NCBI RefSeq assembly: GCF_003751785.1
Contig: NZ_RKIE01000001.1
Span: 434,001-498,000 of the forward strand
Direction of reading: 5' to 3'
DNA: 64,000 nucleotides
From: Frigoribacterium sp. PhB160
GTDB taxonomy: Bacteria > Actinomycetota > Actinomycetes > Actinomycetales > Microbacteriaceae
The position numbers and the translations under genes are program-made. Shown in pieces: positions 2,154 to 37,706 of the stretch; within the stretch, counting starts at the first letter, position 1; every line of letters starts with the position of its first letter. A model generated the notes under the pieces. The model was not told where the DNA came from, did no database searches, and was given only the letters and a program-made list of their open reading frames with translations.

Positions 2154-2154
2154 C

Positions 2155-3753
2155 ATGACCGTACCGAGACCCGTGGCCGAGGCCGCGACGCGCGTCGACG
2201 GAGACGCGACCGACGAGACGGCGTCGCCCCGCGCCTCCTCGACGTCCCCAGGGGCCGGCACCGCCGTGCCCGCCCTCGTCATGAGCGGCATCGTGAAGTC
2301 GTTCCCCGGCACGCGGGCGTGCGACGGGGCGTCGCTCGAGGTCGCCCGCGGGGAGGTGCACTGCCTGCTCGGCGAGAACGGTGCGGGCAAGAGCACGATG
2401 ATGAAGATCCTGTCGGGCTCGTACGTGCCCGACGAGGGCTCCATCACCCTCGACGGCGAGCTCGTCTCGTTCTCGAGCCCGCTCGACGGGGTGCGCGCCG
2501 GCATCGCGACCATCTACCAGGAGCTCGACCTCGTGCCCGACCTGACGGTCGCGCAGAACCTCTTCCTCGGGCACGCACCCACCCGCGGACCGCTCGTCGA
2601 CCACCGGCGTCGCACCGAGCTCGCCGCCGAGGCGATCCGCCGCGTCGGGGGCACGTTCTCGCCCTCGGCCGTCGTGCGATCGCTCTCCGTCTCGGAGCAG
2701 CAGCTGACCGCCATCGCCCGGGCCCTCACGAGCGACGCGCGGGTCATCGTCATGGACGAGCCCTCCGCCACGCTCACCGAGCACGACCTCGAGGCCGTCT
2801 TCGACGTCATCCGCGAGCTCGTCGCCGAGGGGCGGTCGATCATCTACATCTCGCACCGCCTCGACGAGGTCAAGGCGATCGGCGACCGGGCGACGGTCAT
2901 GCGTGACGGCCGCACCGTGTCCACCCACGCCGTCGCCGACGTCAGCAAGCGCGACCTCGTCGACGCCATGATCGGGCGCGAACTGGCCGAGTCGGAGAGC
3001 ACGACGCGGCCGCCGTTCACGGGCGCCGGGCAGCTGCTCGACGTCGAGAGCGCGGTCATCCCGGGGGTGCTCGACGTCCGCGGCGTGCGCGTCCGACCCG
3101 GCGAGATCGTCGGCCTCGCGGGTCTCGGCGGCGCCGGTCGGACGACTCTGCTCGCCTCCGTCTTCGGCGACTCGTCGGCGACGCTCGACATGACGTTCCG
3201 CGGCCGCCGGCACACGCGCATGTCGTCGCAGCGGGCCGTCGCCCTCGGCATCGGCCTCGTGCCGGAGGACCGCAAGCGCCAGGGCCTCCTGCTCGACCTC
3301 TCGATCCTCCGCAACGCCGGCCTCGCCGCCCTGCGGCCCTTCGGCCTGAACCCGGCCGCGGCCGCCCGCCGCGTCGCCGCCGGTCCGCTCGCGGGGCTCG
3401 GCGTCAAGTACGCCAGCGTCGACCAGGCCGTCGGCCAGCTCTCCGGCGGCAACCAGCAGAAGGTCGTCCTCGCCAAGTGGATGGCCCGCGGCATCGACCT
3501 CCTCCTGCTCGACGAGCCGACCCGCGGCCTCGACATCGGCGCCAAGGCCGACCTCTTCGCCCAGGTGCGGGAGCTCGCCGCGACCGGCGTCGGAGTGCTG
3601 ATGGCCAGCAGCGAGCTGTCCGAGCTCACCGAGAACTGCGACCGCGTCTGGGTCCTCCACGAGGGCCGCAACGTCGCCGAGTACGAACCCCACCAGACGC
3701 CCGCGGCCGAGATCGCCCGCGCCGTCGTGACAGGAAGCATCGACCATGACTGA
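2155..3753 (+). CDS. RbsA-type sugar ABC transporter ATP-binding protein
   Basis: ATPase of a CUT2-class sugar importer, at the cytoplasmic face of the membrane. The 532-residue protein carries two ABC domains. The first has Walker A GENGAGKST (73-81), signature LSVSEQQ (about 177) and Walker B VIVMDEP. The second has the degenerate P-loop GLGGAGRTT (about 323) normal for RbsA proteins, signature LSGGNQQ (about 429) and LLLLDEPTRGLD. A roughly 40-residue Ala/Thr-rich tail precedes the first domain. The gene starts one base after the SorC stop and overlaps the permease by 8 bases. No periplasmic-type binding protein lies in the window; it may be upstream. Confidence 0.93.
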   Translation: MTVPRPVAEAATRVDGDATDETASPRASSTSPGAGTAVPALVMSGIVKSFPGTRACDGASLEVARGEVHCLLGENGAGKSTMMKILSGSYVPDEGSITLDGELVSFSSPLDGVRAGIATIYQELDLVPDLTVAQNLFLGHAPTRGPLVDHRRRTELAAEAIRRVGGTFSPSAVVRSLSVSEQQLTAIARALTSDARVIVMDEPSATLTEHDLEAVFDVIRELVAEGRSIIYISHRLDEVKAIGDRATVMRDGRTVSTHAVADVSKRDLVDAMIGRELAESESTTRPPFTGAGQLLDVESAVIPGVLDVRGVRVRPGEIVGLAGLGGAGRTTLLASVFGDSSATLDMTFRGRRHTRMSSQRAVALGIGLVPEDRKRQGLLLDLSILRNAGLAALRPFGLNPAAAARRVAAGPLAGLGVKYASVDQAVGQLSGGNQQKVVLAKWMARGIDLLLLDEPTRGLDIGAKADLFAQVRELAATGVGVLMASSELSELTENCDRVWVLHEGRNVAEYEPHQTPAAEIARAVVTGSIDHD

Positions 3754-4801
3754 CAACGCCGTCATCACCGACCCGACCCGTGCCGCAGGGAGCGGCGGCG
3801 GAGCCGGTCCCTCGGGTCCGCGCAAGCCACTCGTGCCGGGCAGGGCGACCGGCCGCCAGCAGCGCCAGGCGCTCCTGGTGCGGTTCAACCTGCTCATCAT
3901 CTTCGTGGTGCTGTTCATCGTGGCGTCGATCGTCGCTCCCGAGTTCCTCTCGCAGCAGAACCTGTCCAACCTGCTGCAGCAGTCGAGCCTCGTCGGCATC
4001 GTCGCGATCGGCATGACCGTGGTCATCCTCACCGCAGGCATCGACCTCTCCGTCGGCAGCGTCGCCGCGCTCGCCGGGATGCTCGTCGCGATCTTCATCG
4101 GCCTCGGCGTCCCCTGGCCGATCGCCGTGCTGCTCGCCGTGGGCGCCGGCGTCGTCAGCGGCGGGGTCGTCGGCAGCCTCATCGCCTACCTCAAGCTCCC
4201 CGCGTTCATGGTGACCCTGGCGGCGCTGCAGAGCGTCCGCGGCGTCACCTACCTGACCACGAACGGCACGCCCACGACCTCCGAGATCCCCACGGGCCTG
4301 CGCTTCCTCGGCGCCGGGTCGATCGCGGGCGTCCCCGTGGTCGGCGTCCTCTTCATCCTCGTCACGGTCGTGGTCGCCTTCGTGCTCAAGCGCACGACCT
4401 ACGGCGAGTACGTCTACGCGGTCGGCAGCAACAAGGACGCCGCCCGCCTCTCCGGCCTGCCGGTCAACCGCATCCTCACGAGCGTCTACGTCATCTCAGG
4501 CGGCCTCGCGGCCTTCGCCGGGGTGCTCCTCACGGGGCGCCTGACGATCGGGCAGCCGACCGCCAACCAGGGACTCGAGCTCGACGCCATCGCCGCGGTC
4601 GTGCTCGGCGGCACCAGCCTGTTCGGGGGCAAGGGCGGCGTCGCCGGCACCTTCATCGCCGTGCTGCTGCTCTCCGTGCTGCGGAACCTCTTCAACCTGA
4701 TGGGGCTGAGCTCGTTCTTCCAGATGGTCGTGACGGGCCTCATCCTCGTCGCCGCGCTCGTCATGAACCACGTGCTCGACCAGCGCGGCAAGCGCGCCTG
4801 A
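3746..4801 (+). CDS. RbsC-type sugar ABC transporter permease
   Basis: Membrane channel of the same importer, 351 residues, BPD_transp_2 family. A 45-residue polar N-terminus is followed by about nine or ten hydrophobic segments. Family hallmarks include [13 protein letters not shown] (about 92-104) and the [20 protein letters not shown] block (about 275-295). Its start lies inside the ATPase gene, which implies translational coupling. Only one permease gene is present, so the channel is either a homodimer or uses a second permease encoded upstream. Confidence 0.93.
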
Positions 4802-4859
4802 CCTGCTCGGCAGCGACCGCCTGCTCCACGACCCGCCACCCACGAGAGAGAATCGACGC

Positions 4860-5579
4860 ATGACCGACACCACCCCCACCACCGGCGCCGCCGCGCCCAC
4901 CGCCGCCGACGTCGCGCGGATGATCGACCACACCCTGCTCAAGCCCGAGGCGACCCGCGCCGACGTCGACGCGCTCGTCGCCGAGGCCGTCGAGCTCGGC
5001 ACCTACTCCGTCTGCGTCTCGCCGTCGATGCTGCCGCTCGTGCTGCCCGAGGGCGCCGACCTCAAGATCGCCGTGGTCGCCGGGTTCCCGAGCGGCAAGC
5101 ACACGAGCGCGGTCAAGGCCGCCGAGGCCGCCGAGGCCGTGGCCGCCGGCGCCGACGAGGTCGACATGGTCATCGACGTCGGGGCCGCCAAGGCCGGCGA
5201 CTTCGCCTCCGTCGAGGAGGACATCGCCGCGGTCCGCACCGCCGTCCCCGCCCCGACCGTGCTCAAGGTCATCATCGAGTCGGCCGCGCTCAGCGACGAC
5301 GAGATCGTCGCGGCCTGCCGGGCCGCCGAGTCGGCCGGCGCCGACTTCGTCAAGACGTCCACGGGCTTCCACCCGACCGGCGGCGCGACGGTGCACGCCG
5401 TCGAGCTCATGGCGCAGACCGTCGGCGGGCGCCTCGGCGTCAAGGCCTCGGGCGGCGTCCGCTCCCTCGCCGACGCGCAGGCGTACGTCGCGGCGGGGGC
5501 GACGAGGCTCGGCGTCTCGGGAAGCCGGGCCCTGCTCGGCGACGCGGGTGCCGGCGACGGGAGCGGCGCCGGGTACTGA
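4860..5579 (+). CDS. deoC: Deoxyribose-phosphate aldolase
   Basis: Class I aldolase that reversibly cleaves 2-deoxyribose 5-phosphate to glyceraldehyde 3-phosphate and acetaldehyde. The 239-residue protein has IDHTLLKP near the N-terminus and the Schiff-base motif FVKTSTGF (Lys about 165), with the second conserved Lys in VKASGGVR. The ATG at 4860 follows GAGAGAGA by about 7 bases. It lies 58 bases after the permease and is probably the last gene of the operon. In this setting it would make the final cleavage of the phosphorylated imported sugar, implying a deoxy sugar or a substrate isomerised to one. The family is clear; the operon substrate is not. Confidence 0.93.
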
Positions 5580-25665: not shown

Positions 25666-26391
25666 ATGACGACGAAGCGCACCATCCGCACCCTGACCAT
25701 CGGAGGAGCCGCCGCGGCAGCCCTCACCCTCGTGGTCGCCGCCCCCGCCGCCGCCGAGACCACCGTGCCCGAGCCCTCGACGTTCACGAGCGCCTTCACC
25801 GTGATGGCCACCCCCGACCAGGTCATCAACAACGACGGCGTCGCCACGCCCGGCGAGACCGGCGCGACCGGCACCTTCGACTTCCGCATCAACAGCGACA
25901 CCGAGGTGATCTGCTACGACATCACCCTCAGCGGCGTGACGGGCGACTACATGAGCCCGGCGAAGACGGCGACCCACATCCACCAGGCCGCCGCGGGCAA
26001 GGCCGGCCCGCCGCGCATCGCGTTCCCGAACCCCGTCGACCAGGGCGACGGCACCCGCACCAGCAGCGGCTGCCTGCAGGGCCCCTTCACCACGGGCGTC
26101 ATGAACGACGCCGGCGCCGACACGGGCACCGGCTTCACCCTCGCCCAGATCGAGGCCGACCCGGCCGGCTTCACCGGCGACACGCACACGGCGTCGTTCG
26201 CGGCCGGCGTGGTCCGCGGCCAGCTGACCCAGGTGCCGGTCGGCGGCGTCGACACCGGCCTCGGCGGCGCGGCCGCCTCGGGCGACCAGGACTCGGGCCT
26301 CGCGCTCGGCGCCGGCGCCCTCGGCCTGACCGGCGTGCTCGGCGCGGCGGCGTTCGTCGCCGTCCGTCGTCACCGCTCGCACCAGGCCTGA
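25666..26391 (+). CDS. Exported CHRD-domain protein
   Basis: 241 residues. Signal peptide to about residue 31 (ALTLVVAAPAAAE). Residues about 35-185 are a CHRD domain, first seen in chordin: FDFRINSDTEVICYDITLSG, THIHQAAAGKAGPPRIAF, then ASFAAGVVRGQL. A Gly/Ala linker, a hydrophobic helix (about 210-233) and RRHRSHQA tail follow, so the protein is membrane-tethered at its C-terminus. There is no proper LPXTG-like motif before the helix. It is followed within six bases by the sortase gene and is divergent from the sigma factor operon. Confidence 0.88.
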   Translation: MTTKRTIRTLTIGGAAAAALTLVVAAPAAAETTVPEPSTFTSAFTVMATPDQVINNDGVATPGETGATGTFDFRINSDTEVICYDITLSGVTGDYMSPAKTATHIHQAAAGKAGPPRIAFPNPVDQGDGTRTSSGCLQGPFTTGVMNDAGADTGTGFTLAQIEADPAGFTGDTHTASFAAGVVRGQLTQVPVGGVDTGLGGAAASGDQDSGLALGAGALGLTGVLGAAAFVAVRRHRSHQA

Positions 26392-26396
26392 TCGCC

Positions 26397-27089
26397 GTGC
26401 GCGCCCGTCGCCTGCTCGTCGTCGCCGCGGTGGTGGCGGGCGCGAGCCTGCTCACCGCGTGCGCGGTCGGAGGCGACGGGGGCGCGGGCGGTGCCGGTGG
26501 CGGTGGGGCGAACTCAGGAGGAACGGTCTCGGCCGAGCCGTCGACCGGCCCCACGGGGACGGACGCGACGGGGAGTCCTGAGTCGTCGACGACTCCTCCG
26601 GCGGCGGGACCCGATGCCGCCGTCGGAGGCTCCGCGCTCACGATCGGGGTGGCCCCGGCGCGGGTGGACGTGCCCGCGATCGGCCTCTCCGAACCGCTGA
26701 TCGACCTCGGCATCGCCGCCGACGGGGCGATGGAGGTGCCGACGGACGCCGACGACGTCGGCTGGTTCACCGGAGGCGGCCGCCCCGGCGGCCGCGGCCC
26801 CACGGTCGTCGCGGCGCACGTCGACTCGGCGACCGGGCCGGCGGTCTTCGCCCGGCTCGACGAGGTCGTCGTCGGCGACGAGGTCACGCTGACCGACGTC
26901 GAGGGGGGCACGGTCGCGTACGTCGTGACCGAGGTCGTCGACGTGCCGAAGGCCGAGTTCCCGACCGCGCGGGTCTTCGGGGCCCAGCCGACCGACCAGC
27001 TGCGGCTCATCACCTGCGGGGGCGTCTTCGACCGCGGGTCGGGGCACTACGACCAAAACCGCGTGGTGTTCGCGGAGCCCGTGGGCTGA
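26397..27089 (+). CDS. Class F sortase with lipoprotein-type signal
   Basis: 230 residues. The N-terminus has a short hydrophobic run ending LLTAC, a good lipobox, so it may be a lipoprotein. A Gly/Ser/Thr/Pro-rich spacer (about 25-85) precedes the sortase fold. Catalytic residues are visible: His 141 in VVAAHVDS, Cys 207 in LRLITCGGVFD, Arg 222 in YDQNRVVF. VGWFTGGGRPGGRGPTVVAAH is typical of class F. It is probably co-transcribed with the CHRD gene, with a hairpin about 125 bases downstream. Class F sortases have poorly known substrates; the CHRD protein is a natural candidate but lacks an obvious motif. Confidence 0.88.
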   Translation: MRARRLLVVAAVVAGASLLTACAVGGDGGAGGAGGGGANSGGTVSAEPSTGPTGTDATGSPESSTTPPAAGPDAAVGGSALTIGVAPARVDVPAIGLSEPLIDLGIAADGAMEVPTDADDVGWFTGGGRPGGRGPTVVAAHVDSATGPAVFARLDEVVVGDEVTLTDVEGGTVAYVVTEVVDVPKAEFPTARVFGAQPTDQLRLITCGGVFDRGSGHYDQNRVVFAEPVG

Positions 27090-27249: not shown

Positions 27250-27281
27250 CGTCGTTGTCGGGGAGGGACTGGCGTAGATCC

Positions 27282-27298
27282 GATAGGATATGCGATAG
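27282..27298 (+). promoter_or_regulatory. A/T-rich repeat before tctC
   Basis: GATAG occurs twice, 12 bases apart, in an unusually A/T-rich patch about 60 bases before tctC. It includes a possible -10 (TAGGAT, 27284-27289) and may also be an operator; the GntR gene of this cluster is preceded by the related CCTATAGG. Confidence 0.35.
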
Positions 27299-27353
27299 TT
27301 CTGGCAGCGGGTGGTCTGCACCCGGGTGGAACCGATCACTGGAGATCAAGACG

Positions 27354-28319
27354 ATGAAGTCACGCACCCCCCTCGTCGCCGGCCTGGCCGCGGCGTCCCT
27401 GCTCTGCCTCACGGCCTGCGGCTCCGCCGCCGGCGCGGGGTCCTCCGACGGCGTCCCCACGGGCAACGTCACCATGCTCGTGCCGATGGGCGCCGGAGGC
27501 GGCAGCGACCTCTCCGGCCGCGCCATCGCCTCCGGCCTCGAAGGCGGCACGGGCCTCAACGTCAGCGTCGAGAACCGCGAGGGCGGCTCGGGCGCCATCG
27601 GCTACTCGTACTTCCTGGGCCAGGAGGGTCGCAACGACCTGCTGCTCGCCGCCGAGACGGCGATGCTCGCGCTGCCGGTCACGCAGGACGTGCAGTTCAC
27701 CTACGAGGACTTCACGCCGATCATGAAGGTCGGCGACGACTTCACGCTCATCGTCGTGCCCGCCGACAGCGACTACGACACCTGCACCGACGTCGTCGAC
27801 GCCGCCGCGGACGAACGCGTCGTCGCGGCCGTGTCGGGCTCGACCTCGCTGGACGAGATCGTCTTCACCCTCATCGAGCAGGAGGAGGACGTCGAGTTCG
27901 ACCGCGTGCCGTTCGAGTCGGGCAGCGAGGTCCTCACCGGCCTGCTGGGCGGACAGGTCGACGTCGCGTCGCTCAACCCGGCCGAGGTCATCGCGCAGCT
28001 CGAGGCCGGCGACCTCAAGGCGCTCTGCGCCGTCGCCGAGGAACGCTACGAGTACGAGGCGCTGGCCGACATCCCCACGGCGGCCGAGCAGGACATCGAC
28101 GTGTCGTTCGCGCAGTTCCGCGGGTTCATCGCCCCGGGCGGCATCAGCGAGGAGGCCGAGCAGTTCTGGATCGACGCCGGCGAGGCCTACGCCGACAGCG
28201 ACGCCTACACCGAGTACGTCGAGAGCAACTACCTGCAGGCCAACGCCCAGTACGGCGACGAGTTCCGCACCTACCTGGGCGAGAACACGGCCGACCTCGA
28301 GAAGGTGTTCGGCGAGTGA
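27354..28319 (+). CDS. tctC: Tripartite tricarboxylate transporter substrate-binding lipoprotein
   Basis: Extracytoplasmic receptor of a TTT-family importer, 321 residues. Lipobox CLTAC near residue 22. The family landmarks are VTMLVPMGAGGGSDLSGRAIA, VENREGGSGAIGYSYF and GLLGGQVDVASLNPAEVIAQLEAGDLKAL. TTT systems take up organic acids (citrate, tartrate, aromatic acids and others) using an ion gradient. Its stop overlaps the TctB start. In this cluster the ligand is probably the sugar acid handled by the downstream enzymes. Confidence 0.9.
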   Translation: MKSRTPLVAGLAAASLLCLTACGSAAGAGSSDGVPTGNVTMLVPMGAGGGSDLSGRAIASGLEGGTGLNVSVENREGGSGAIGYSYFLGQEGRNDLLLAAETAMLALPVTQDVQFTYEDFTPIMKVGDDFTLIVVPADSDYDTCTDVVDAAADERVVAAVSGSTSLDEIVFTLIEQEEDVEFDRVPFESGSEVLTGLLGGQVDVASLNPAEVIAQLEAGDLKALCAVAEERYEYEALADIPTAAEQDIDVSFAQFRGFIAPGGISEEAEQFWIDAGEAYADSDAYTEYVESNYLQANAQYGDEFRTYLGENTADLEKVFGE

Positions 28320-28933
28320 CCGCGGCGCAGCGCGGCGGCCTCGCCGCCAGCGCCGTCCTCGCGGTCGTCGGCCTGGCCGCGCTCGTCGGCGGCCTCGGCT
28401 ACGGCGTGACCGTGGAGGGCGGCGAGATCGGACCGGGCTTCCTGCCCGCGATGGCCGGCGGCCTGGTCGCGGTCTTCGCGGTCCTCGACCTCGTCGGGCG
28501 CCTCCGTCGCCGGTCCGACCGGCCCACGCAGGCCGAGCTCATCCTCGACACCCCCTCCCGCCCCGAGGGCGGCATCGTGCTCGGCGACCCCCTCGACCCG
28601 GGCGCCCCCACGACGAGCACCCAGTCGATCCACTCGCCGCTCGCGACCGACGACGACGCCGACGGCGTCGACATCCTCGGCCGCACGCAGCGCCAGCGCA
28701 ACCGCATGCTCGCGGTCGTGCTCGGCCTCGTCGTCGTGACGCTCGTCATGGTGCAGGTGGTCGGCTTCCTGCTCGCCTTCGTGCTGCTGCTCTTCGTGGT
28801 CGCCGTCTTCGTGGAGCGCCGCCGCGTGCTCCCCTCCGCCCTCGTCGCGGTCGCCGCCGGCGCGGTCACCTACGCCGTCTTCGTCGCCCTCCTCAGCGTG
28901 CCCCTGCCCCAGGGCCTGCTGGGCCTCATCTAG
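28316..28933 (+). CDS. tctB: Tripartite tricarboxylate transporter small permease
   Basis: TctB-type four-helix protein of 205 residues. The first two helices (about 8-65) contain GGEIGPGFLPAMAGGLVAVFA, typical of the family. A polar 75-residue insertion rich in Asp, Ser and Thr (about 70-125) is longer than usual. Helices 3 and 4 follow, with VVTLVMVQVVGFLLAFVLLL. GTG start within the tctC stop (GTGA). Works with TctA. Confidence 0.85.
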   Translation: MTAAQRGGLAASAVLAVVGLAALVGGLGYGVTVEGGEIGPGFLPAMAGGLVAVFAVLDLVGRLRRRSDRPTQAELILDTPSRPEGGIVLGDPLDPGAPTTSTQSIHSPLATDDDADGVDILGRTQRQRNRMLAVVLGLVVVTLVMVQVVGFLLAFVLLLFVVAVFVERRRVLPSALVAVAAGAVTYAVFVALLSVPLPQGLLGLI

Positions 28934-28945
28934 GGACTGACCCTC

Positions 28946-30502
28946 ATGATCGACAACCTCGTCCTCGGCTTCTCGACGGCGTTCACGCCCGAGAACCTGC
29001 TGTGGTGCTTCATCGGCGTGCTGCTGGGCACCGTGATCGGGCTCATGCCCGGCCTCGGCTCCACCACCGGCGTCGCCATCCTCATCCCCCTGACCCTCAC
29101 CCTCGAGCCCGTCACCGCGCTGATCATGCTCGCCGGCATCTACTACGGCGCGCAGTACGGCGGGACGATCACCAGCGTCCTGATCTCGACGCCGGGAGAG
29201 GCCGCGAGCGTGGTCACCACGCTCGACGGCTACCAGATGGCGAAGAACGGCAAGGCCGGCTCGGCCCTCGCCATCAGCGCCATCGGCTCCTTCGTCGCGG
29301 CGATCATCTCGCTCGCCCTGCTCATGTGGCTCGCCCCGCCGCTCGCCGACCTGGCCCTCAACTTCGGCCCGGTCCAGAACCTGGCGATCATGATCCTGGG
29401 CCTCGTCATCGTCGTCAGCTTCGCCGGCGGCTCGCTGTCGCGCGGGCTGATGATGGCCGCCGCGGGCCTGCTCATCTCCACGGTGGGCGTCGCCACCGGC
29501 TTCAGCGACGCCCGCTTCACCTTCGGCAGCATCAACCTGCTGAGCGGCATCCCCTTCATCGAGGTGATGATCGGCCTCTTCGCCGTCGGCGAGGTGCTGC
29601 ACCAGATCCGGCGCGGGGCCGACGCCCCGATCCGCACGCGCTTCCGCGACATGGTCATCAGCCGCGGCGAGCTCAAGCGGAGCGCCGGTCCGATCCTCCG
29701 GGGCAGCGGCATCGGGTTCGTGCTGGGCATCCTGCCGGGCGCGGGCTCGACCCTCGCCTCGTTCATGGCCTACGGCATCGAGAAGCGGGTCTCGCCCCGC
29801 AAGGCGATGTTCGGCAAGGGCGCGATCGAGGGCGTCGCCGCCCCCGAGAGCGCGAACAACGCCGCGGCGAACGCGAACTTCGTGCCGACGCTCGCGCTCG
29901 GCATCCCGGGCGGCGGCACGACCGCCGTGCTGCTCGGCGCCTTCACCGTCTACGGCCTCCAGCCGGGTCCGCGACTCTTCGAGACGCAGCCGACGCTGAT
30001 CTGGGGCCTGCTCGTCTCGTTCTTCATCGGCAACGTCATGCTGCTGGTGCTCAACCTGCCGCTCGCGCCGGTGTTCGCCCAGATGCTGCGGATCCCCTAC
30101 GGCTACCTGTACCCGATCATCCTGCTGACGAGCTTCGTCGGCGCGTACTCGGTCAGCAACAACATGTTCAGCGTGGTGCTCGTGCTGATCTTCGGGGTGG
30201 TCGGCTGGGTCATGAAGGAGCTCGACCTGCCGATGGCGCCCCTCGTGCTGGGCCTCGTGCTCGGCCCGCTGTTCGAGAAGGCGCTCGTGCAGACCTCGGC
30301 GATCGGCCAGGGCAGCTTCCTCGTGCTGCTGCAGAGCCCCATCAGCGTCGGCATCCTGCTCTTCGCCGTGCTGCTCATGGTCGGCCCGAAGCTCGCGGCC
30401 CGGTTCGCGGTCCGTCGCGGCCCCCGTGGCTCCGCGACGGCCGGCCCCGGCTCCGACGCCGCGGAGGCCCGCGAGCACGAGCGTGACGAGGCCGGCCGAT
30501 GA
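28946..30502 (+). CDS. tctA: Tripartite tricarboxylate transporter large permease
   Basis: 518-residue, about twelve-helix channel subunit. Hallmarks are LLGTVIGLMPGLGSTTGVAILIPL near residue 30, IYYGAQYGGTITSVLISTPGE near 70, and the repeat-related GFVLGILPGAGSTLASFMAY near 260 with GVAAPESANNAA. The arrangement C-B-A is standard. Its stop overlaps the next enzyme start (ATGA), tying transport directly to catabolism. Confidence 0.93.
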   Translation: MIDNLVLGFSTAFTPENLLWCFIGVLLGTVIGLMPGLGSTTGVAILIPLTLTLEPVTALIMLAGIYYGAQYGGTITSVLISTPGEAASVVTTLDGYQMAKNGKAGSALAISAIGSFVAAIISLALLMWLAPPLADLALNFGPVQNLAIMILGLVIVVSFAGGSLSRGLMMAAAGLLISTVGVATGFSDARFTFGSINLLSGIPFIEVMIGLFAVGEVLHQIRRGADAPIRTRFRDMVISRGELKRSAGPILRGSGIGFVLGILPGAGSTLASFMAYGIEKRVSPRKAMFGKGAIEGVAAPESANNAAANANFVPTLALGIPGGGTTAVLLGAFTVYGLQPGPRLFETQPTLIWGLLVSFFIGNVMLLVLNLPLAPVFAQMLRIPYGYLYPIILLTSFVGAYSVSNNMFSVVLVLIFGVVGWVMKELDLPMAPLVLGLVLGPLFEKALVQTSAIGQGSFLVLLQSPISVGILLFAVLLMVGPKLAARFAVRRGPRGSATAGPGSDAAEAREHERDEAGR

Positions 30503-31503
30503 GCCCCTCCCGCGCCGACTGGCCCATCGCCGCCGCGATGCTGCAGTTCCCCGCCGTCGACCGCGACGGCATGAGCACCCTCGACGCCGAGCCGGGGGCC
30601 TGGCAGGCCTCGTTCGACGAGATCCGCGAGGCCGGGTTCGACCTCGTCGAGATCAACGACAACTGGCTGCGGGTCGGTGACCTGCCCGGTCGTCGGCTCG
30701 ACGAGCTGGCGGCGGCCGGCCGTGCCGCGCACGTCGACCTCACGAGCGTCTGCGTCGTCCGGTCGAGCGTGATCGACCCGGACGCCGGCACGGAGAACCT
30801 GGCCTACAGCCACCGCACCCTCGAGGCCGCGGCCCGGCTGGGAGCCGACGTCGTGTCGATCGGCTTCCACCGGCCGCTCACTCCCGAGCAGCGCGCACGG
30901 CTCTGGTTCTGGACGGCGCAGGGCGCGGTCGACGCGCCCGACGACCCCGAGAACTGGCGCCTGGCCGTCGACCGCGTGACGGAGCTCGGCCGGCACGCCG
31001 CCCAGCTCGGCCTCGACCTGACCCTCGAGATGTACGAGGACACCTACCTCGGCACCGCCGAGAGCTCGGTCCGGCTCGTCACGGAGGTGGGGCTCGACAA
31101 CGTCGGCCTCAATCCCGACGTCGGCAACCTCGTGCGCCTGCACCGGCCGATCGACGACTGGCGGGAGACCCTCGCCGCGACCCTGCCGCACGCGAACTAC
31201 TGGCACGTGAAGAACTACCACCGCGACGAGGACCCGGCCACCGGCACCTACACGGCCCTGCCGGCCCCCCTCGAGCTCGGCCTCATCAACTACCGGCACG
31301 CCGTGCGCGACGCCGTCGAGGCCGGCTTCCGCGGGACCTTCGTCTGCGAGCACTACGGCGGCGACGGGCTCTCCGTCGCCGCCCTGAACCGGGACTACCT
31401 GCGCCGCGTGCTGCCCAGCGCCGAGCGCATGGCCGTCCTCGACGAGCAGGAGGCGCTGGTCGCCTCCGCCGTCACCGACCCGAGAGAGGAGATGGTGTCG
31501 TGA
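30499..31503 (+). CDS. Sugar phosphate isomerase/epimerase-like TIM-barrel enzyme
   Basis: 334 residues, AP_endonuc_2/xylose isomerase-like barrel. Candidate metal ligands are Glu in LEMYEDTY, Asp in LNPDVGNL, His in NYWHVKNYH and Glu in FVCEHYGG. The family includes isomerases, epimerases and some decarboxylases, such as the 3-oxo-isoapionate decarboxylase that makes L-erythrulose, and the 2-oxo-tetronate isomerases. It lies between the transporter and the kinase and overlaps both by four bases, so it probably acts early, before phosphorylation. The exact reaction cannot be told from sequence. Confidence 0.85.
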   Translation: MSPSRADWPIAAAMLQFPAVDRDGMSTLDAEPGAWQASFDEIREAGFDLVEINDNWLRVGDLPGRRLDELAAAGRAAHVDLTSVCVVRSSVIDPDAGTENLAYSHRTLEAAARLGADVVSIGFHRPLTPEQRARLWFWTAQGAVDAPDDPENWRLAVDRVTELGRHAAQLGLDLTLEMYEDTYLGTAESSVRLVTEVGLDNVGLNPDVGNLVRLHRPIDDWRETLAATLPHANYWHVKNYHRDEDPATGTYTALPAPLELGLINYRHAVRDAVEAGFRGTFVCEHYGGDGLSVAALNRDYLRRVLPSAERMAVLDEQEALVASAVTDPREEMVS

Positions 31504-33296
31504 CCATCCTCGAGTACGACGCGACCACCTTCGCCGACGAGGCCCTGGACGGCTTCACGGCGGCCCACGACTCGCTGCGCCGCGTGGACGGCGGCGTGGT
31601 GCGGCGCGACCCGCTGGCCGACGGCCAGGTCGCCGTCGTCGTCGGCGGGGGCTCCGGCCACTACCCGGCCTTCGCCGGCCTCGTCGGCCCCGGCCTCGCA
31701 GCCGGGGTCGCCTACGGCAACATCTTCGCCTCGCCGTCCGCGGGCCAGGTCTGCCGCGTGTCGCGGGCCGTCCAACGCGGCGGCGGGGTCGTGCTGTCGT
31801 TCGGCAACTACGCCGGGGACGTGCTCAACTTCGGCCAGGCTGCCGAGCGCCTCCGGGCCGAGGGGGTCGACGTGCGCGTCGTCGCCGTCACCGACGACAT
31901 CGCCAGCGGAGGGCGCGACGAGATCGCGAAGCGCCGGGGCATCGCCGGCGACCTGACGGTCTTCAAGGTGCTGGGCGCCGCGGCCGAGGCCGGCCACGAC
32001 CTCGACCGCGTCGAGGAGCTCGGGCGTCGGGCCAACGACCGCACCCGCTCGTTCGGCGTCGCGTTCTCCGGCTGCACGCTGCCGGGCGCGACGGAGCCGC
32101 TCTTCACCGTGCCCGAGGGGCGCATGTCGATCGGCCTCGGCATCCACGGCGAGCCCGGCGTCGGCGAGGCCGACCTGCCGTCGGCCCGCGAGCTGGCCGA
32201 GCTGCTCGTCGGCTCGCTGCTCGCCGAGGCCCCTGAGGGCGCGGGCGACCGGGTCGTCGTGCTGCTCAACGGCCTCGGCACCTACAAGTACGAGGAGCTC
32301 TTCGTGCTCTACGGCCACGTCGCGCGCCTGCTCGGCGAGGCCGGCGTCACGATCGTGCAGCCCGAGGTCGGCGAGCTCGTCACGAGCCTCGACATGTCGG
32401 GCGTCTCGGCCACCTTCTTCTGGGTCGACGACGAGCTCGAGCAGCTCTGGGGCAGCCCGGCATGGAGCCCCGCGTTCCGCAAGGGAGCAGTGGAGGCGCG
32501 GGGCGGCGACGCGCGCGACCGTCCCGACCTCGAGGCGGTGCCCTCGGTGGCCGCGGTCGACGACCCGCGCCACGTCGACGCCGGCCGGCCGCTGCTCGCG
32601 GGCCTCGAGCGGGTCGCCGAGATGATCGTCGCCTCCGAGGAGGAGTTCGGCCGCCTCGACGCGGTGGCCGGCGACGGCGACCACGGCATCGGCATGGCCC
32701 GCGGCGTCACCGCGGCCCTGACGTCGGCCCGGTCGGCCGTCGAGCGAGGTGCCGGCGTCTCGACGGTCCTCGCCGAGGCCGGCGAGGGCTGGGCGGAGCA
32801 CGCCGGCGGCACCTCGGGCGCGTTGTGGGGCGTGTGCCTCACCAGCGCCGGCGCCGCCCTGGCCGCGGAGCCCGACCTGCGCGACCCGCGGGCCTCGGCC
32901 CGCGCCGCCGGGGCGGGCCTCGAGGCGATCCAGCGCCTCGGCGGTGCCGAGGTCGGCGACAAGACCCTTGTCGACGCCTTCGTGCCGCTGGTCGACGCGC
33001 TGCGCCGCGCCGCCGACGACGGGCTCGCCCTGCCGGAGGCCTGGACGCGGGCCGCCGCGGCAGCGACCGAGGCGGCGGACGCGACCGCACGCCTCCGGCC
33101 CCGCCTCGGCCGTGCGCGGCCCCTGGCCGAGAAGAGCCTCGGCCACCCCGACGCGGGCGCCGTGTCGTTCTCGCGCATCGCGGGCGTCGTCGCCCGCGAG
33201 ACCCGCGAGACCCGCGAGACCCGCGAGACCCGCGAGGACCGCGCTGCGGGCCCGACCGTCGACCCCGACCCCACCCCGATCCGCCAGGAGGCCTGA
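31500..33296 (+). CDS. DhaK-DhaL fusion kinase (dihydroxyacetone/erythrulose kinase family)
   Basis: ATP-dependent ketose kinase of 598 residues. DhaK (about 1-335) has VVGGGSGHYPAFAGLVG, which differs from the GHEPAHAG of classical DhaK, plus FSGCTLPG and MSIGLGIHGEPGV. DhaL (about 365-560) has VAGDGDHGIGMARG, carrying the Asp residues that bind Mg-ATP, and EHAGGTSGALWG. The C-terminal tail carries a short Arg-Glu-Thr repeat. L- and D-erythrulose kinases belong to this fused family, as does glycerone kinase. With RpiB- and TIM-like genes next to it, erythrulose is the best candidate substrate (inference). Confidence 0.9.
   Translation: MTILEYDATTFADEALDGFTAAHDSLRRVDGGVVRRDPLADGQVAVVVGGGSGHYPAFAGLVGPGLAAGVAYGNIFASPSAGQVCRVSRAVQRGGGVVLSFGNYAGDVLNFGQAAERLRAEGVDVRVVAVTDDIASGGRDEIAKRRGIAGDLTVFKVLGAAAEAGHDLDRVEELGRRANDRTRSFGVAFSGCTLPGATEPLFTVPEGRMSIGLGIHGEPGVGEADLPSARELAELLVGSLLAEAPEGAGDRVVVLLNGLGTYKYEELFVLYGHVARLLGEAGVTIVQPEVGELVTSLDMSGVSATFFWVDDELEQLWGSPAWSPAFRKGAVEARGGDARDRPDLEAVPSVAAVDDPRHVDAGRPLLAGLERVAEMIVASEEEFGRLDAVAGDGDHGIGMARGVTAALTSARSAVERGAGVSTVLAEAGEGWAEHAGGTSGALWGVCLTSAGAALAAEPDLRDPRASARAAGAGLEAIQRLGGAEVGDKTLVDAFVPLVDALRRAADDGLALPEAWTRAAAAATEAADATARLRPRLGRARPLAEKSLGHPDAGAVSFSRIAGVVARETRETRETRETREDRAAGPTVDPDPTPIRQEA
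33195..33230 (+). repeat. Coding 9-bp tandem repeat (Arg-Glu-Thr)
   Basis: Four perfect nine-base units plus a partial fifth encode a run of Arg-Glu-Thr triplets in the disordered tail of the DhaK-DhaL protein. Such tracts change copy number easily without shifting the frame. Confidence 0.8.
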
Positions 33297-33299
33297 CCC

Positions 33300-33779
33300 G
33301 TGAACGAACCGTTGAGGATCGTCGTCGGCTGCGACGACGCCGGCTACGAGTACAAGGAGCGCCTGCGCGCCGACCTCGAGGGCGACGACCGGGTCGCGAG
33401 CGTGGTCGACGTCGGCGTCGGCCCCGACGGGCACACCGCCTACCCGCACGTCGCGGTCGAGGCCGCCCGGATGGTCGCCGACGGCCGTGCCGACCGCGCG
33501 CTGCTGGTCTGCGGCACCGGTCTCGGGGTGGCGATCGCCGCCAACAAGGTGCCCGGCGTCCGCGCGGTGACGGCGCACGACGGCTTCTCGGTCGAGCGTG
33601 CCGTGCTCTCCAACGACGCACAGGTGCTCTGCTTCGGGCAGCGCGTCGTCGGCATCGAGCTCGCCCGCCGTCTCGCCTCGGAGTGGCTCGACCACCGCTT
33701 CGACCCCACCAGCGCCTCGGCCGCCAAGGTCGACGCCATCAGCTCGTACGAGGAATCCCCGGAAGGACCCGCAGCATGA
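33300..33779 (+). CDS. rpiB: RpiB/LacAB-family sugar-phosphate isomerase
   Basis: 159 residues. [15 protein letters not shown] at the N-terminus, the anion-hole segment [19 protein letters not shown] near 65-85, then [22 protein letters not shown]. RpiB itself interconverts ribose 5-phosphate and ribulose 5-phosphate; paralogues in tetritol pathways (DerI, EryI) interconvert D-erythrulose 4-phosphate and D-erythrose 4-phosphate. The GTG start is three bases after the kinase stop, and the stop overlaps pdxA2. I favour the tetrose role from context. Confidence 0.88.
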
Positions 33780-34834
33780 CCGTCAGCACCCCCGCCTCCA
33801 CCTCCACCTCCGACCGTCATGACGAGGCCCCGACCGCCGACGGTGTCGCGCCCCGGCCCCGCATCGCCCTGACCCTCGGCGACCCCGCCGGCGTCGGCCC
33901 CGAGCTCGCGGCCCGCCTGCTCTCCGACCCCGCCAACCTCGAGGCGGCCGCGATCTTCGTGCTCGCCGACCGTGCCGAGCTCGACGCCGCGGCCGCGGTG
34001 ATCGACGTCACGATCCCGCTGAGCGACGAGCCGCGGCCCGGCTTCGCGACCCTGCTCGACGACGGGTCGGCACCGGCCGAGCCCATCCCGCCGCGCCAGG
34101 TCAGCAAGGAGGCGGGGGAGCGGGCCCTGCACCAGCTGCGGCGGGCCATCGACCTGGCCAACGCGGGCGAGGTCGGCGCCATCGTCTTCACGCCCCTCAA
34201 CAAGACGAGCCTGCACCTCGGCGGCATGACCGAGGAGGACGAGCTGCGCTGGTTCGCGAAGGAGCTCCGAAGCGAGGGCGTGACGAGCGAGATCAACATC
34301 ATCCCGGGCCTCTGGACGGCGCGGGTCACGTCGCACATCGGCATCCGCGACGTCGCCGACCGCATCACGACCCAGGGCGTGGTCGACGCCGTGCGCCTCC
34401 TCGACGAGCTGCTGCGCGACTCGGGCGTCGAGCGCCCCCGACTCGGCGTCTGCGGCCTCAACCCGCACAACGGCGAGAACGGCATCTTCGGCCGTGAGGA
34501 GATCGACGTCATCGCCCCCGGCGTGGCCGAGGCGGCGGCGGGCGGCGTCGACGTGGTCGGGCCGTTCCCCTCGGACACGATCTTCGTCGGGGCACGCGAC
34601 CGCTACGACGGCATCGTGACGATGTACCACGACCAGGGCCAGATCGCGATCAAGCTGCTCGGCTTCGACGGCGGCGTCACCGTGCAGGGCGGCCTGCCCG
34701 TCGTCATCGCGACGCCCGCGCACGGCACCGCGTTCGACATCGCCGGCACCGGCGTCGCGAGCGTCACGTCGAGCCAGCGCGCGCTCGACGTGGCCATCGC
34801 CGTGGCCGGGCGCCGCGCGGTCCGTCGGCCCTGA
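33776..34834 (+). CDS. PdxA2-type 4-phospho-(D-threonate/erythronate) dehydrogenase family protein
   Basis: NAD-dependent metal enzyme of 352 residues. [21 protein letters not shown] at about 28-48 is the PdxA start; metal-binding His residues are in [10 protein letters not shown] and [30 protein letters not shown] and [11 protein letters not shown]-type loops are typical. Biosynthetic PdxA makes a vitamin B6 precursor. PdxA2 paralogues in catabolic clusters oxidise and decarboxylate 4-phospho-threonate or -erythronate to dihydroxyacetone phosphate. The surroundings contain no B6 gene, so PdxA2 is preferred. The usual DUF1537 tetronate kinase is absent from the window. The first 25 residues are a Thr/Ser-rich extension. 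Confidence 0.86.
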
Positions 34835-34836
34835 GC

Positions 34837-35604
34837 GTGCTCGTCGGCATCAGCACCAAGGCGTACCTGTCGCGGGCGCGCACGCTGGAGTGGCTGGGCG
34901 AGCTCGCCGACCTCGCCCGCGGCCACGTCGCGGTGCGGAGCGGTGCCGTCGAGCTCGTCGTGGCCCCGGCCACGCCGCTGCTCGAGGCGGCCGTCCGGCT
35001 GCTCGACGGCACGGGAGTGCGGGTCATGGCCCAGGACGTCAGCCGGTTCGCCGGAGGCGCGGTGACCGGCGAGGTCGTCGCGTCGCTGCTCGCCGACCTC
35101 GGCGTCCTCTACGTCGAGATCGGCCACGCCGAGCGCCGCGGTCTGCTCGGCGAGACCGACGCGGTCGTCGCGGAGAAGGTCGCGCGCAGCCGGGAGGCCG
35201 GTCTCGTCCCCTGGCTCTGCGTGGGGGAGGAGGCGCGGGTCGGGCCCGCCGAGGCTGCCGCGTCGTGCCTGGCGCAGGTCGCCGCGGCGGCGCCCGGGCG
35301 GGGGCCCCTGGTCGTCGCCCACGAGCCCGTCTGGGCGATCGGCGCGGCGGAGCCCGCGCCGGTCGACCACGTCGTGCGCGTCGCCGAGGCGCTCCGGGCG
35401 GGACTGCCCGAAGGCGTCGACGCCGCCCGGCTCGTCTACGGCGGCAGCGCCGGACCGGGACTGCTGGCCCAGACGGTGCCGGCCGTGGACGGCCTGTTCC
35501 TCGGACGGCGGGCCCACGACGTCGCGGGGGTGGCGCGCGTCCTCGACGAGGTCGTCCGCGCCTCCTCACGTCCCCTGAGCACGGCGGACCGGCCGGTCCC
35601 ATGA
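34837..35604 (+). CDS. Triosephosphate isomerase family protein (divergent)
   Basis: 255 residues of TIM fold. The active-site His is in VEIGHAERRGLLGE and the catalytic Glu in AHEPVWAIG; the phosphate loop is YGGSAGPGLLAQ. The N-terminus reads ISTKAYL where housekeeping TPI has a NWKMN-like segment, so the substrate site differs. Catabolic paralogues (LerI/EryH) isomerise L-erythrulose 1-phosphate to D-erythrulose 4-phosphate, which fits the kinase and RpiB neighbours. GTG start two bases after the pdxA2 stop. Confidence 0.86.
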   Translation: MLVGISTKAYLSRARTLEWLGELADLARGHVAVRSGAVELVVAPATPLLEAAVRLLDGTGVRVMAQDVSRFAGGAVTGEVVASLLADLGVLYVEIGHAERRGLLGETDAVVAEKVARSREAGLVPWLCVGEEARVGPAEAAASCLAQVAAAAPGRGPLVVAHEPVWAIGAAEPAPVDHVVRVAEALRAGLPEGVDAARLVYGGSAGPGLLAQTVPAVDGLFLGRRAHDVAGVARVLDEVVRASSRPLSTADRPVP

Positions 35605-35609
35605 GCCTG

Positions 35610-35617
35610 CCTATAGG
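35610..35617 (+). promoter_or_regulatory. CCTATAGG palindrome before the GntR gene
   Basis: This 8-bp palindrome contains a possible -10 box (TATAGG) and may be an autoregulatory operator. It lies about 40 bases before the chosen start. Confidence 0.35.
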
Positions 35618-35654
35618 AAAGACGACCACGGCGAGCATGTGGAACACTGGGCGG

Positions 35655-36329
35655 ATGCCAGCCACGGACGGACAGCGTCGACCGAAGCGCGTGGCGCTGT
35701 CGGAATGGGTCTACGACGAGCTCCTGAGCCGGTTGTTCGACGACACGCTCCCTCCGGGCACTCCCCTCAACATCGACGCGCTGGCCCGCGACCTCGACGT
35801 GTCGCAGACCCCGATCCGGGAGGCCCTCGCCCGCCTCGAGTCGACCGGCCTCGTGACGCGTGCCGCGCTGCGGGGCTACCGGGCGGCGCCGTTGCTCACG
35901 GGCGCGGAGCTCGACGACCTCATGCACGCGCGGGGCGTGATCGAGCCCGCGGTCGCCCGGCTCGCCGCCCCACGGCGCACGGACGGCTTCATCGCGGCCC
36001 TCGGGGAGACCGTCACCCGGCTCGCCGAGGCGCCCAAGGGGCCGACGTTCGCCGAGTACCACGCGTACTGGGAGGCCGACGAGACCTTCCACCAGCTGAT
36101 CGCCCAGCACGCCGACAACGCCTTCCTCCACCGCGCCTTCGAGTCGCTCGGCGGGCAGGCCCAGCGGTTCCGCATGTTCGGCGGGCTGGGCGTGAGCGAC
36201 GCCGACCACGCGATCCGCGAGCACCGGGCGGTCCTCGAGGCCCTCGACTCGGGCGACGCCGACGCGGCGGGGGCGGCCATGCAGGCGCACGTCGACGCGG
36301 TCCGCGGACGGGCCGCGGCCGAGGCGTAG
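35655..36329 (+). CDS. GntR-family regulator, FCD subfamily
   Basis: 224 residues. N-terminal winged helix (about 12-75): LSEWVYDELLSRLFDDTLPPG and LDVSQTPIREALARLESTGLV. The FCD effector domain (about 95-215) has the usual metal/ligand residues in EADETFHQLIAQHADN and AIREHRAVLEALDSGD. FCD regulators bind organic acids or sugar acids, matching the TTT importer. It is the last gene of the cluster and the likely local repressor. Start uncertain: in-frame ATG 35637 is an alternative. Confidence 0.9.
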   Translation: MPATDGQRRPKRVALSEWVYDELLSRLFDDTLPPGTPLNIDALARDLDVSQTPIREALARLESTGLVTRAALRGYRAAPLLTGAELDDLMHARGVIEPAVARLAAPRRTDGFIAALGETVTRLAEAPKGPTFAEYHAYWEADETFHQLIAQHADNAFLHRAFESLGGQAQRFRMFGGLGVSDADHAIREHRAVLEALDSGDADAAGAAMQAHVDAVRGRAAAEA

Positions 36330-36887: not shown

Positions 36888-37706
36888 ATGACCCAGCCCC
36901 GTCACCCCGCATCCGCCACCCCGGCCACCGGCTCCCTCTGGGTCGTCACGGGGGCCGCCGGCACGGTCGGCACGGCCCTCCGTGCCGCCCTCTACGAGCT
37001 GGGCGTCGACCTCGTCTCGACCGACCTCCGCGAGCCGACGTCGCTCGGGGAGCGCGACCGGGTCGTCGCCGCCGACGTCGCCGACCTCGAGGGGCTCGTC
37101 GAGCTGGTCGCCGGGGCCGACGGCGTCATCCACCTCGGCGGGATCGCCGACGAGGCCGACTTCCACGACCTGGCGACGGTGAACGTCGTCGGCACGTACC
37201 ACGTGCTCGAGGCCGCACGCCGGGCAGGCGTGCCCCGCGTCGTCTTCGCGAGCACGAACCGCGTGACCGGCATGCACCCCGCCGGGACGACGACCGACCC
37301 GACGATGCCGACCCGGCCAGACGGCTTCTACGGGGCCTCGAAGGTCGCCGGCGAGGCCCTCTGCCAGCTCTACGCCGACAAGTTCGGGCTCAGCACGATC
37401 GCCGTCCGCATCGGCAGCTACGGCGACGAGCCCGGCTCGGCCCGGGAGCAGCGCACGTGGCTGAGCCGGGCCGACGCGGTCCGCGCGTTCGTCGCGGCGA
37501 TGACGACGGACGCCCACCACGCCGTCTTCTACGCGGTCTCGGCGAACCGCGACCGCTGGTGGGACCTCGAGGCAGGCCGGGCCGTCGGCTTCGAGCCGCA
37601 GGACGACGCGTCGACGCGTCGTGCCGACGAGCCCTACGACCCGGCGGCGCCGCAGGGCGGGCCGTACGCCGAGGTCGCCTTCTCGCTCGACCGCATGACG
37701 CGGTAG
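36888..37706 (+). CDS. NAD-dependent SDR, uronate dehydrogenase-like
   Basis: 272 residues, extended SDR. Cofactor motif GAAGTVG (about 23-29), HLGGIADEADF, catalytic Ser/Thr in FASTNRVTGMHP, then YGASKVAGE with the Tyr-x3-Lys pair. The stretches VRIGSYGDEPGSAREQRTWLS and VSANRDRWWDLE closely follow the layout of uronate dehydrogenase, which oxidises glucuronate or galacturonate to aldaric acid lactones. AGGAGGA lies just before the ATG. It may serve sugar-acid metabolism with the preceding cluster, but it has its own promoter region. Confidence 0.82.
   Translation: MTQPRHPASATPATGSLWVVTGAAGTVGTALRAALYELGVDLVSTDLREPTSLGERDRVVAADVADLEGLVELVAGADGVIHLGGIADEADFHDLATVNVVGTYHVLEAARRAGVPRVVFASTNRVTGMHPAGTTTDPTMPTRPDGFYGASKVAGEALCQLYADKFGLSTIAVRIGSYGDEPGSAREQRTWLSRADAVRAFVAAMTTDAHHAVFYAVSANRDRWWDLEAGRAVGFEPQDDASTRRADEPYDPAAPQGGPYAEVAFSLDRMTR

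Follow-up and report, generated by a model that had tools for sequence, protein, structure and literature searches.

D-Apionate is reportedly catabolized by a pathway with OiaC, LerK, LerI and DerI (Carter et al. 2018), and PdxA2 is said to act together with a DUF1537 kinase in the catabolism of D-threonate and D-erythronate (Zhang et al. 2016). The latter work is cited in PMC9997740, and PMC7232202 describes how Yarrowia lipolytica degrades erythritol by a pathway that includes EYK1 and two erythrulose-phosphate isomerases. Here we describe a nine-gene operon, referred to below as the island, that occupies positions 27354-36329 of the window, a 64,000-nucleotide stretch of Frigoribacterium sp. 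PhB160 (C1:434001-498000 of a 3.34-Mb genome; 75% GC). All nine genes are on the + strand, and the open reading frame (ORF) listing together with Pfam and NCBIfam scans gives the order tctC, tctB, tctA, a PF01261 gene, dhaKL, rpiB, pdxA, tpi and gntR. The reading that we favour, with a probability of about 0.55, is that the PdxA would oxidize an unphosphorylated imported acid, that the PF01261 protein would decarboxylate the product to erythrulose, and that the DhaKL, TPI-like and RpiB-like proteins would carry erythrulose on to erythrose 4-phosphate; the outline from acid to erythrulose that the first-pass annotation had drawn is probably right. The new points are the class to which the PdxA belongs, here termed the E class, and its swap with another dehydrogenase; no description of the island or of the E class was found in the literature searched, a limited collection.

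Substrate residues and phylogeny of the E-class PdxA

In E. coli PdxA, the presumed substrate positions are H136, T137, N283 and R292, together with K274, and the presumed metal ligands are H166, H211 and H266; the sequence of the E. coli protein agrees at each of the eight positions. In the island PdxA, H166, H211, H266 and K274 are retained, and positions 136, 137, 283 and 292 (E. coli numbers) are E, L, T and I. All eight residues are kept in a Pantoea protein annotated as D-threonate 4-phosphate dehydrogenase and in a second PdxA of the island genome (C1:610048). A Rhodococcus TphB-type protein, named from its dioxygenase neighbours, likewise lacks the four residues and lies outside the E-class clade; the substrate of such proteins presumably carries no phosphate.

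A total of 129 PdxA rows were gathered, and three with unreadable alignments (L144, L165 and L252) were dropped before tree construction. The remaining 126, in which the window PdxA and one genome each appear a second time, comprise 100 of the E class, 25 of an H-T-(N/S)-R type, and one of the TphB type. Every one of the 100 E-class rows keeps H166, H211, H266 and K274 and has lost H136, N283 and R292; T137 is lost in 98, and two have T. The E class forms a single clade in the PdxA tree (SH-aLRT 100). The island PdxA also scores below the cut-off of the TIGR00557 pdxA equivalog model (250.5 of 290.35 bits), and elsewhere in the genome the score is 343 for the C1:610048 PdxA and 235 for the remaining PdxA, which is E class.

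Searching a genome collection with the signature peptides MYHDQGQ and PAHGTA[FY]D showed at least 586 stretches that encode a relative. Eighty loci were kept, of which 78 are readable and all 78 are E class; the search favours this class and is thus no measure of class frequency. The five annotated E-class records that were opened are all deposited as 4-hydroxythreonine-4-phosphate dehydrogenase. Judged by its residues, the E-class PdxA seems to have given up phosphorylated substrates, and the residue test at H136/T137/N283/R292 would free a large clade from its annotation as vitamin-B6 or phospho-acid enzymes, besides indicating the substrate class for which these enzymes should be assayed.

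Exchange of PdxA with a second dehydrogenase

Among 249 genomes of the same family as the window, the PF01261 protein is present in 65, at 73 places (E <= 1e-40), and the neighbours of each were recorded within 9 kb. Thirteen places have PdxA, 45 have a 3-hydroxyacyl-CoA-dehydrogenase-like protein (referred to below as the dehydrogenase; a single member was scanned and has PF02737/PF00725, and the others were recognized by tblastn), none has both, and 15 have neither (Fisher one-sided p 4e-7, the rows not being independent). The 13 partner PdxAs are all E class by residues. In a sample of the same order the protein occurs in 86 of 347 genomes, at 89 places; six of these lie in the window's own family (five already sampled, plus G946) and three were not obtained, which leaves 80 of 83 out-of-family places in the count. 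Within up to 16 kb, seven of the 80 have PdxA, 58 the dehydrogenase, none both, and 15 neither (p 5e-5). For several of the 80 places, and for a few among the 73, the contig ends before all neighbours are covered (for example L264, 3.2 kb; L284, 5.0 kb). Taken together, the two samples hold 153 places, 20 with PdxA, 103 with the dehydrogenase and none with both. A phylum-wide sample has the PF01261 protein in only 4 of 396 genomes, with the G297 locus left out of the places considered.

The two island types also differ in transport genes: tctC accompanies PdxA in 9/13 and 7/7 islands of the two samples, and Tct genes were seen at none of the dehydrogenase-type places (0/45 and 0/58); one of the 15 same-family places with neither enzyme has tct genes as well. 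Six genomes (G134, G187, G087, G135, G072 and G936) carry both island types, at separate loci. The PdxA/dehydrogenase label was traced over a tree of 163 PF01261 proteins (the 153 places plus ten PdxA loci added by choice; a quick tree under a single-matrix model, with some long rows) and needs 12 changes there; when PdxA is set against every other row, no fewer than 10 changes are required by the strongly supported branches. Repeated replacement without coexistence, the pattern seen, is what one would expect of two enzymes that serve one step. The swap offers a genome-based rationale for assigning steps one and two of a sugar-acid pathway, and it makes the function of the family of 5tnv, the only Protein Data Bank match of the PF01261 protein (E 6.8e-89), directly testable.

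Predicted pathway

Because PdxA replaces the dehydrogenase beside the same PF01261 protein, both enzymes would, most simply, make the same kind of 3-keto acid, and the PF01261 protein would decarboxylate it. Proteins of the 3-hydroxyacyl-CoA-dehydrogenase-like type oxidize a 3-hydroxyl, and we know of no decarboxylating member of that family. The expected product is erythrulose, since a five-carbon 3-keto acid minus CO2 gives erythrulose; the L form is favoured, since tpi, which only the L series requires, is present in 9 of the 13 same-family PdxA islands. We propose that an acid sugar is imported by TctABC. Most likely it is an aldonate of five carbons, and the lactonase genes near 5 of these 13 islands would fit an aldonate. 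The E-class PdxA would then oxidize the 3-hydroxyl of the unphosphorylated acid with NAD, and the PF01261 TIM-barrel protein would decarboxylate the 3-keto acid to L-erythrulose. Homology and gene sharing suggest that DhaKL would form L-erythrulose 1-phosphate; the TPI-like protein would convert this to D-erythrulose 4-phosphate, and the RpiB-like protein would yield D-erythrose 4-phosphate, which would enter the pentose phosphate pathway; the operon would be controlled by GntR. The PdxA and 3-hydroxyacyl-CoA-dehydrogenase families classically act on opposite 3-hydroxyl configurations, so the two front ends may start from epimeric acids and converge on a single keto acid.

In the PdxA family, oxidation is coupled to decarboxylation, and it is conceivable, if unlikely, that the PdxA itself oxidizes and decarboxylates the acid to a ketose, the PF01261 protein being a 3-epimerase or isomerase that gives L-erythrulose for DhaKL. 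No NCBIfam name for the PF01261 protein is over its cut-off, and the best match is D-psicose 3-epimerase, which would suit such a role at a score far under the cut-off (27 of 300 bits). The PF01261 gene stays, however, when the dehydrogenase gene replaces pdxA, and one role for the constant partner is simpler.

Tentatively, at slightly less than even odds, we suggest a broader interpretation: the E-class PdxA would be a new and widespread enzyme type, an NAD-dependent 3-dehydrogenase (possibly decarboxylating) of unphosphorylated sugar acids, derived from the vitamin-B6 enzyme through loss of phosphate-binding residues. Together with a 5tnv-type TIM-barrel decarboxylase it would open a route, so far undescribed, by which five-carbon sugar acids reach erythrose 4-phosphate, and it would have been swapped many times with a 3-hydroxyacyl-CoA-dehydrogenase-type enzyme of opposite stereochemistry.

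Kinase and isomerases

TPI, RpiB and Dak1 genes each occur three times in the genome. The island TPI shares 47% identity with the one at C1:646.7 kb and 37% with the best-scoring TPI, the housekeeping one; the island RpiB shares 76% with the RpiB at C1:646.3 kb, which belongs to a second gene set linked to an ApnO-like gene, and 36%, in an alignment of 116 residues, with the third RpiB-type protein; and the island DhaKL shares about 59% with the DhaKL of that ApnO-linked set (C1:644.5 kb) and about 42% with the DhaK at C1:1662 kb. In the TPI tree, which has 37 rows, the island TPI stands with TPIs of tetrulose clusters, apart from the housekeeping TPI (support 98/97); L100, an island-type row on a long branch, falls on the housekeeping side, its placement being unsure. 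The island TPI is below the cut-off of each NCBIfam TPI model that it matched, and DhaKL is below that of glycerone kinase (TIGR02361, 363 of 575 bits). RpiB is below the cut-off of the DerI model NF051858, rhizobial by name (145.4 of 240 bits), and passes TIGR02133 RPI_actino (208.5 bits vs a cut-off of 168.2). By these comparisons the island kinase and isomerases go with tetrulose-phosphate enzymes and not with the genome's housekeeping copies. The first-pass annotation had allowed that they might instead group with housekeeping enzymes that have no second copy, and the TPI tree, the RpiB identity and the second genomic copies all point the other way. Its broader proposal, import of an acid and a back end from erythrulose to erythrose 4-phosphate, is supported by the TPI tree and by the identity of the island RpiB to the ApnO-linked one.

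These data also bear on a four-carbon substrate, which would be oxidized to 3-oxotetronate and decarboxylated to dihydroxyacetone, DhaKL then being a true dihydroxyacetone kinase and the TPI-like protein acting on dihydroxyacetone phosphate. We consider this quite improbable. Membership of the DhaK family would suit it, as would the Sinorhizobium version of the island, which has PdxA, Tct, PF01261 and DhaKL and no isomerases. It sits badly with the position of the island TPI and RpiB among tetrulose-cluster enzymes, with the score of DhaKL under the glycerone kinase cut-off, with the separate dhaK gene of the genome (beside which, by eye, there are apparently dhaL and glycerol kinase genes), and with the presence of rpiB in 11 and tpi in 9 of the 13 same-family PdxA islands. 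The four islands without tpi are in genomes with a second TPI (G134, G187) or with a dehydrogenase-type island that carries tpi (G135, G072).

A second, apionate-like gene set

The ApnO-linked set spans C1:642-649 kb (L229:5986-13276) and consists of gntR, an MFS transporter gene, dhaKL, rpiB, tpi, and genes for a 269-aa PF01261 protein and a 304-aa PF16896 protein. PF16896 is a domain of ApnO; the PF16896 gene lies at C1:648.4 kb and its PF01261 neighbour at C1:647-649 kb, and the Pfam scan found no PF16896 gene in the island. The set looks like the ApnO-OiaC-LerK-LerI-DerI route, and in a sister genome (G035; L034) the island and the ApnO-like set adjoin. The island and ApnO-linked PF01261 proteins align over 132 residues only, with 30% identity.

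It is very unlikely that the island is a plain D-apionate pathway of this kind: it has the same kinase and isomerase families and a PF01261 protein, but its own PF16896 gene is wanting, the genome holds an ApnO-like set with a PF01261 gene of its own, and the two PF01261 proteins are as distant as just described. Apionate was thus rejected as first choice for the island substrate. The earlier suggestion of a tetronate or apionate-like substrate stands as regards the import of an acid and is unlikely as regards apionate; the identification of the island PF01261 protein as a 3-oxo-isoapionate decarboxylase is doubtful, and the PF01261 protein beside PF16896 is the better candidate.

Seven of the 80 out-of-family loci (L323, L325, L327, L330, L331, L332 and L336) have the PF01261 gene near ApnO-like and OiaC-like genes, and five of the seven have the dehydrogenase as partner. 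At L325 and L332 the 16 kb examined contain, besides the ApnO-like genes and the PF01261 gene, just one kinase/isomerase set, as if two front ends fed one back end.

DUF1537 kinases and the phosphotetronate route

DUF1537 genes are present in the genome at C1:608336 and C1:1857348, each beside another PdxA, so the earlier statement that a DUF1537 kinase is missing holds for the island and fails for the genome. Near PdxA, DUF1537 was found in none of the 20 islands of the two samples (0/13 same-family, 0/7 out-of-family), nor in any of seven plasmid E-class loci. A class-wide sample of 197 genomes has PdxA in 19, at 25 places; by a hand count from coordinates, DUF1537 lies within 3 kb in 21 of the 22 places with a non-E-class PdxA (one of which, L252, is unreadable for residues) and in one of the three with the E class. 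The exception among the 22, G323:C131, has none listed on its contig.

It had been proposed that DhaKL, or another kinase, makes a 4-phosphotetronate from which PdxA2 gives dihydroxyacetone phosphate. We regard this as very improbable. It draws on membership of the PdxA family and on E-class pdxA genes that do stand beside DUF1537 genes; it conflicts with the loss of the four substrate residues, with the absence of DUF1537 from all 20 islands, and with the replacement of PdxA and the dehydrogenase by each other. DhaKL as the missing acid kinase found no support. The phosphotetronate branch is probably wrong, and the evidence favours the other branch that had been offered, a new pathway.

A strict rule that E-class PdxA never meets DUF1537 was rejected (C1:1858150, L096 and others). 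The region C1:1857-1859 kb (L231:7659-10188) holds an E-class PdxA-DUF1537 pair whose PdxA is on a long branch of the tree, a different pairing from that of the island. DUF1537 kinases beside an E-class PdxA might, by analogy, act on the keto acid, as OtnK and OiaK do.

Distribution of the E class and points against the proposed pathway

Of the 80 genome-collection loci, 11 are actinobacterial, with the PF01261 gene in eight and tctA in eight. The 69 others (L105-L173) include 26 with an amidohydrolase-type lactonase, 24 with tctA and 17 with a DapA-like aldolase. Because non-actinobacterial loci keep other gene company, the E class has more than one job: it serves more than one acid-sugar pathway, of which the PF01261/DhaKL branch is one. 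Plasmids of Sinorhizobium and Shinella carry gntR, pdxA, tctCBA, the PF01261 gene and dhaKL, and in Sinorhizobium meliloti 1021, a strain used in laboratories, this version of the island is on pSymB.

Several observations weigh against the route from an unphosphorylated acid through erythrulose. The swap counts are over related genomes, the seven out-of-family PdxAs were assigned to their class by best match and not by residues, and 15/73 and 15/80 of the PF01261 places have neither dehydrogenase, some of them on short contigs. ApnO-like genes were found near none of the seven out-of-family PdxA islands. None of the 69 non-actinobacterial E-class loci has a match to the PF01261 partner or to dhaKL, and 39 of them have an L-rhamnonate-dehydratase-like enolase; the Sinorhizobium and Shinella plasmid islands are without rpiB or tpi in the stretches examined. 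The third PdxA of the genome (C1:1858150; EMHHHKTV) is E class and its gene overlaps a DUF1537 gene, and a Curtobacterium E-class PdxA that is 82% identical to the island PdxA also follows a DUF1537 gene. DUF1537 is present in 6/80 genome-collection E-class loci, within 1 kb in L096, L114 and L140, at 3.6 kb in L137, and at 8 and 9.6 kb in L100 and L109, the last two being PdxA-PF01261 islands. Since some E-class pdxA genes adjoin DUF1537 genes, the class alone does not exclude phosphorylated acids.

Organization of the operon

Eight enzyme and transport genes in one direction, closed by an FCD-type gntR, had been noticed in the first-pass annotation, and the ORF listing and domain scans confirm them. 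Adjacent genes overlap by four bases or are separated by gaps of 2-12 bases, and all nine products are above curated Pfam cut-offs (TctC, TctB, TctA, AP_endonuc_2, Dak1+Dak2, LacAB_rpiB, PdxA, TIM and GntR+FCD). The gene set is found again in other genomes and is therefore no chance layout; the operon is real and conserved.

The tripartite tricarboxylate transporter set is complete. The gene tctC (27354-28319) encodes the periplasmic binding protein (PF03401, 73 bits, for a query started 9 bases upstream of the ATG), whose best solved relative is 25hk_A (E 1.1e-39); tctB (28316-28933; PF07331, 56 bits) encodes the small membrane subunit and overlaps tctC by 4 bases; and tctA (28946-30502; PF01970, 528 bits), for the large membrane subunit, begins 12 bases after tctB. 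The oiaC-like PF01261 gene (30499-31503; 98.7 bits), for the predicted 3-keto sugar acid decarboxylase, has a 4-base overlap with tctA, as does the dhaKL fusion (31500-33296; PF02733+PF02734), for the predicted L-erythrulose kinase, with the PF01261 gene. Near the 3' end of dhaKL, at 33193-33236, there is a perfect 9-base tandem repeat of 4.9 copies that encodes successive RET units, perhaps a tail of variable length. The rpiB-like gene (33300-33779; PF02502), for the predicted D-erythrulose-4-phosphate isomerase, starts 3 bases after dhaKL and is overlapped by 4 bases by the E-class pdxA (33776-34834; PF04166, 275 bits), for the predicted NAD-dependent dehydrogenase of an unphosphorylated sugar acid. 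The tpi-like gene (34837-35604; PF00121), for the predicted L-erythrulose-1-phosphate isomerase, is 2 bases further on. The last gene, gntR (35601-36329; PF00392+PF07729), is presumably the regulator of the operon; it overlaps tpi by 4 if the first ATG is used, with later in-frame ATGs at 35637 and 35655, and a homologue is found within 9 kb in 13/13 PdxA islands of the same family.

The A/T-rich ATAGG elements reported before tctC and at gntR do exist in the sequence. The first, CCGATAGGATATGCGATAGT (27280-27299, + strand), is a possible promoter or operator, and the second, CCTATAGG, sits just inside the first gntR start. The tctC-upstream element is identical in the sister genome G035, the one relative compared, and the DNA further upstream differs. 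A sigma-70 consensus scan gave no match, and because of this, despite the identity in G035, their role as shared operators is unproven.

Upstream of the operon, at 25666-27089, are a secreted protein (25666-26391) and an apparent class F sortase, both named by eye from translations. Downstream, a short-chain dehydrogenase/reductase gene (36888-37706) matches Azf-type glucose-6-phosphate dehydrogenase far below the cut-off (110.8 of 400 bits); it was dropped as an operon member, being present in 1 of 20 loci checked, namely the window itself. At the start of the window (1-5579), the ORF list has genes that apparently encode an FGGY kinase, a sugar ABC transporter and a DeoC-like protein and that perhaps form another sugar cluster.

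Comparison with known systems

The island resembles the D-apionate pathway in having the kinase, both isomerases and a PF01261 protein at the branch into erythrulose, and differs from it in lacking an ApnO-like gene, in having PdxA and a Tct importer, and in a PF01261 protein that is far from the ApnO-linked one. With the PdxA2-DUF1537 system it shares a PdxA of the same family, with the metal-ligand histidines and K274, but it is without the kinase partner, four substrate residues are replaced, and the protein is under the TIGR00557 cut-off. The terephthalate dihydrodiol dehydrogenase TphB (4aty), a PdxA-family match, is like the island PdxA an enzyme of that family, one with a phosphate-free substrate, and the Rhodococcus TphB-type protein shares the loss of the four residues; unlike the island PdxA, the TphB-type protein is outside the E-class clade and belongs to an aromatic pathway. 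The closest solved relative of the island PF01261 protein, 5tnv, is named only AP endonuclease family protein 2, with no activity or pathway attached. Unlike the island, the Yarrowia pathway (PMC7232202) begins with erythritol via a dehydrogenase and with no imported acid, and like the proposed back end of the island it runs from L-erythrulose-1-phosphate through D-erythrulose-4-phosphate to erythrose-4-phosphate.

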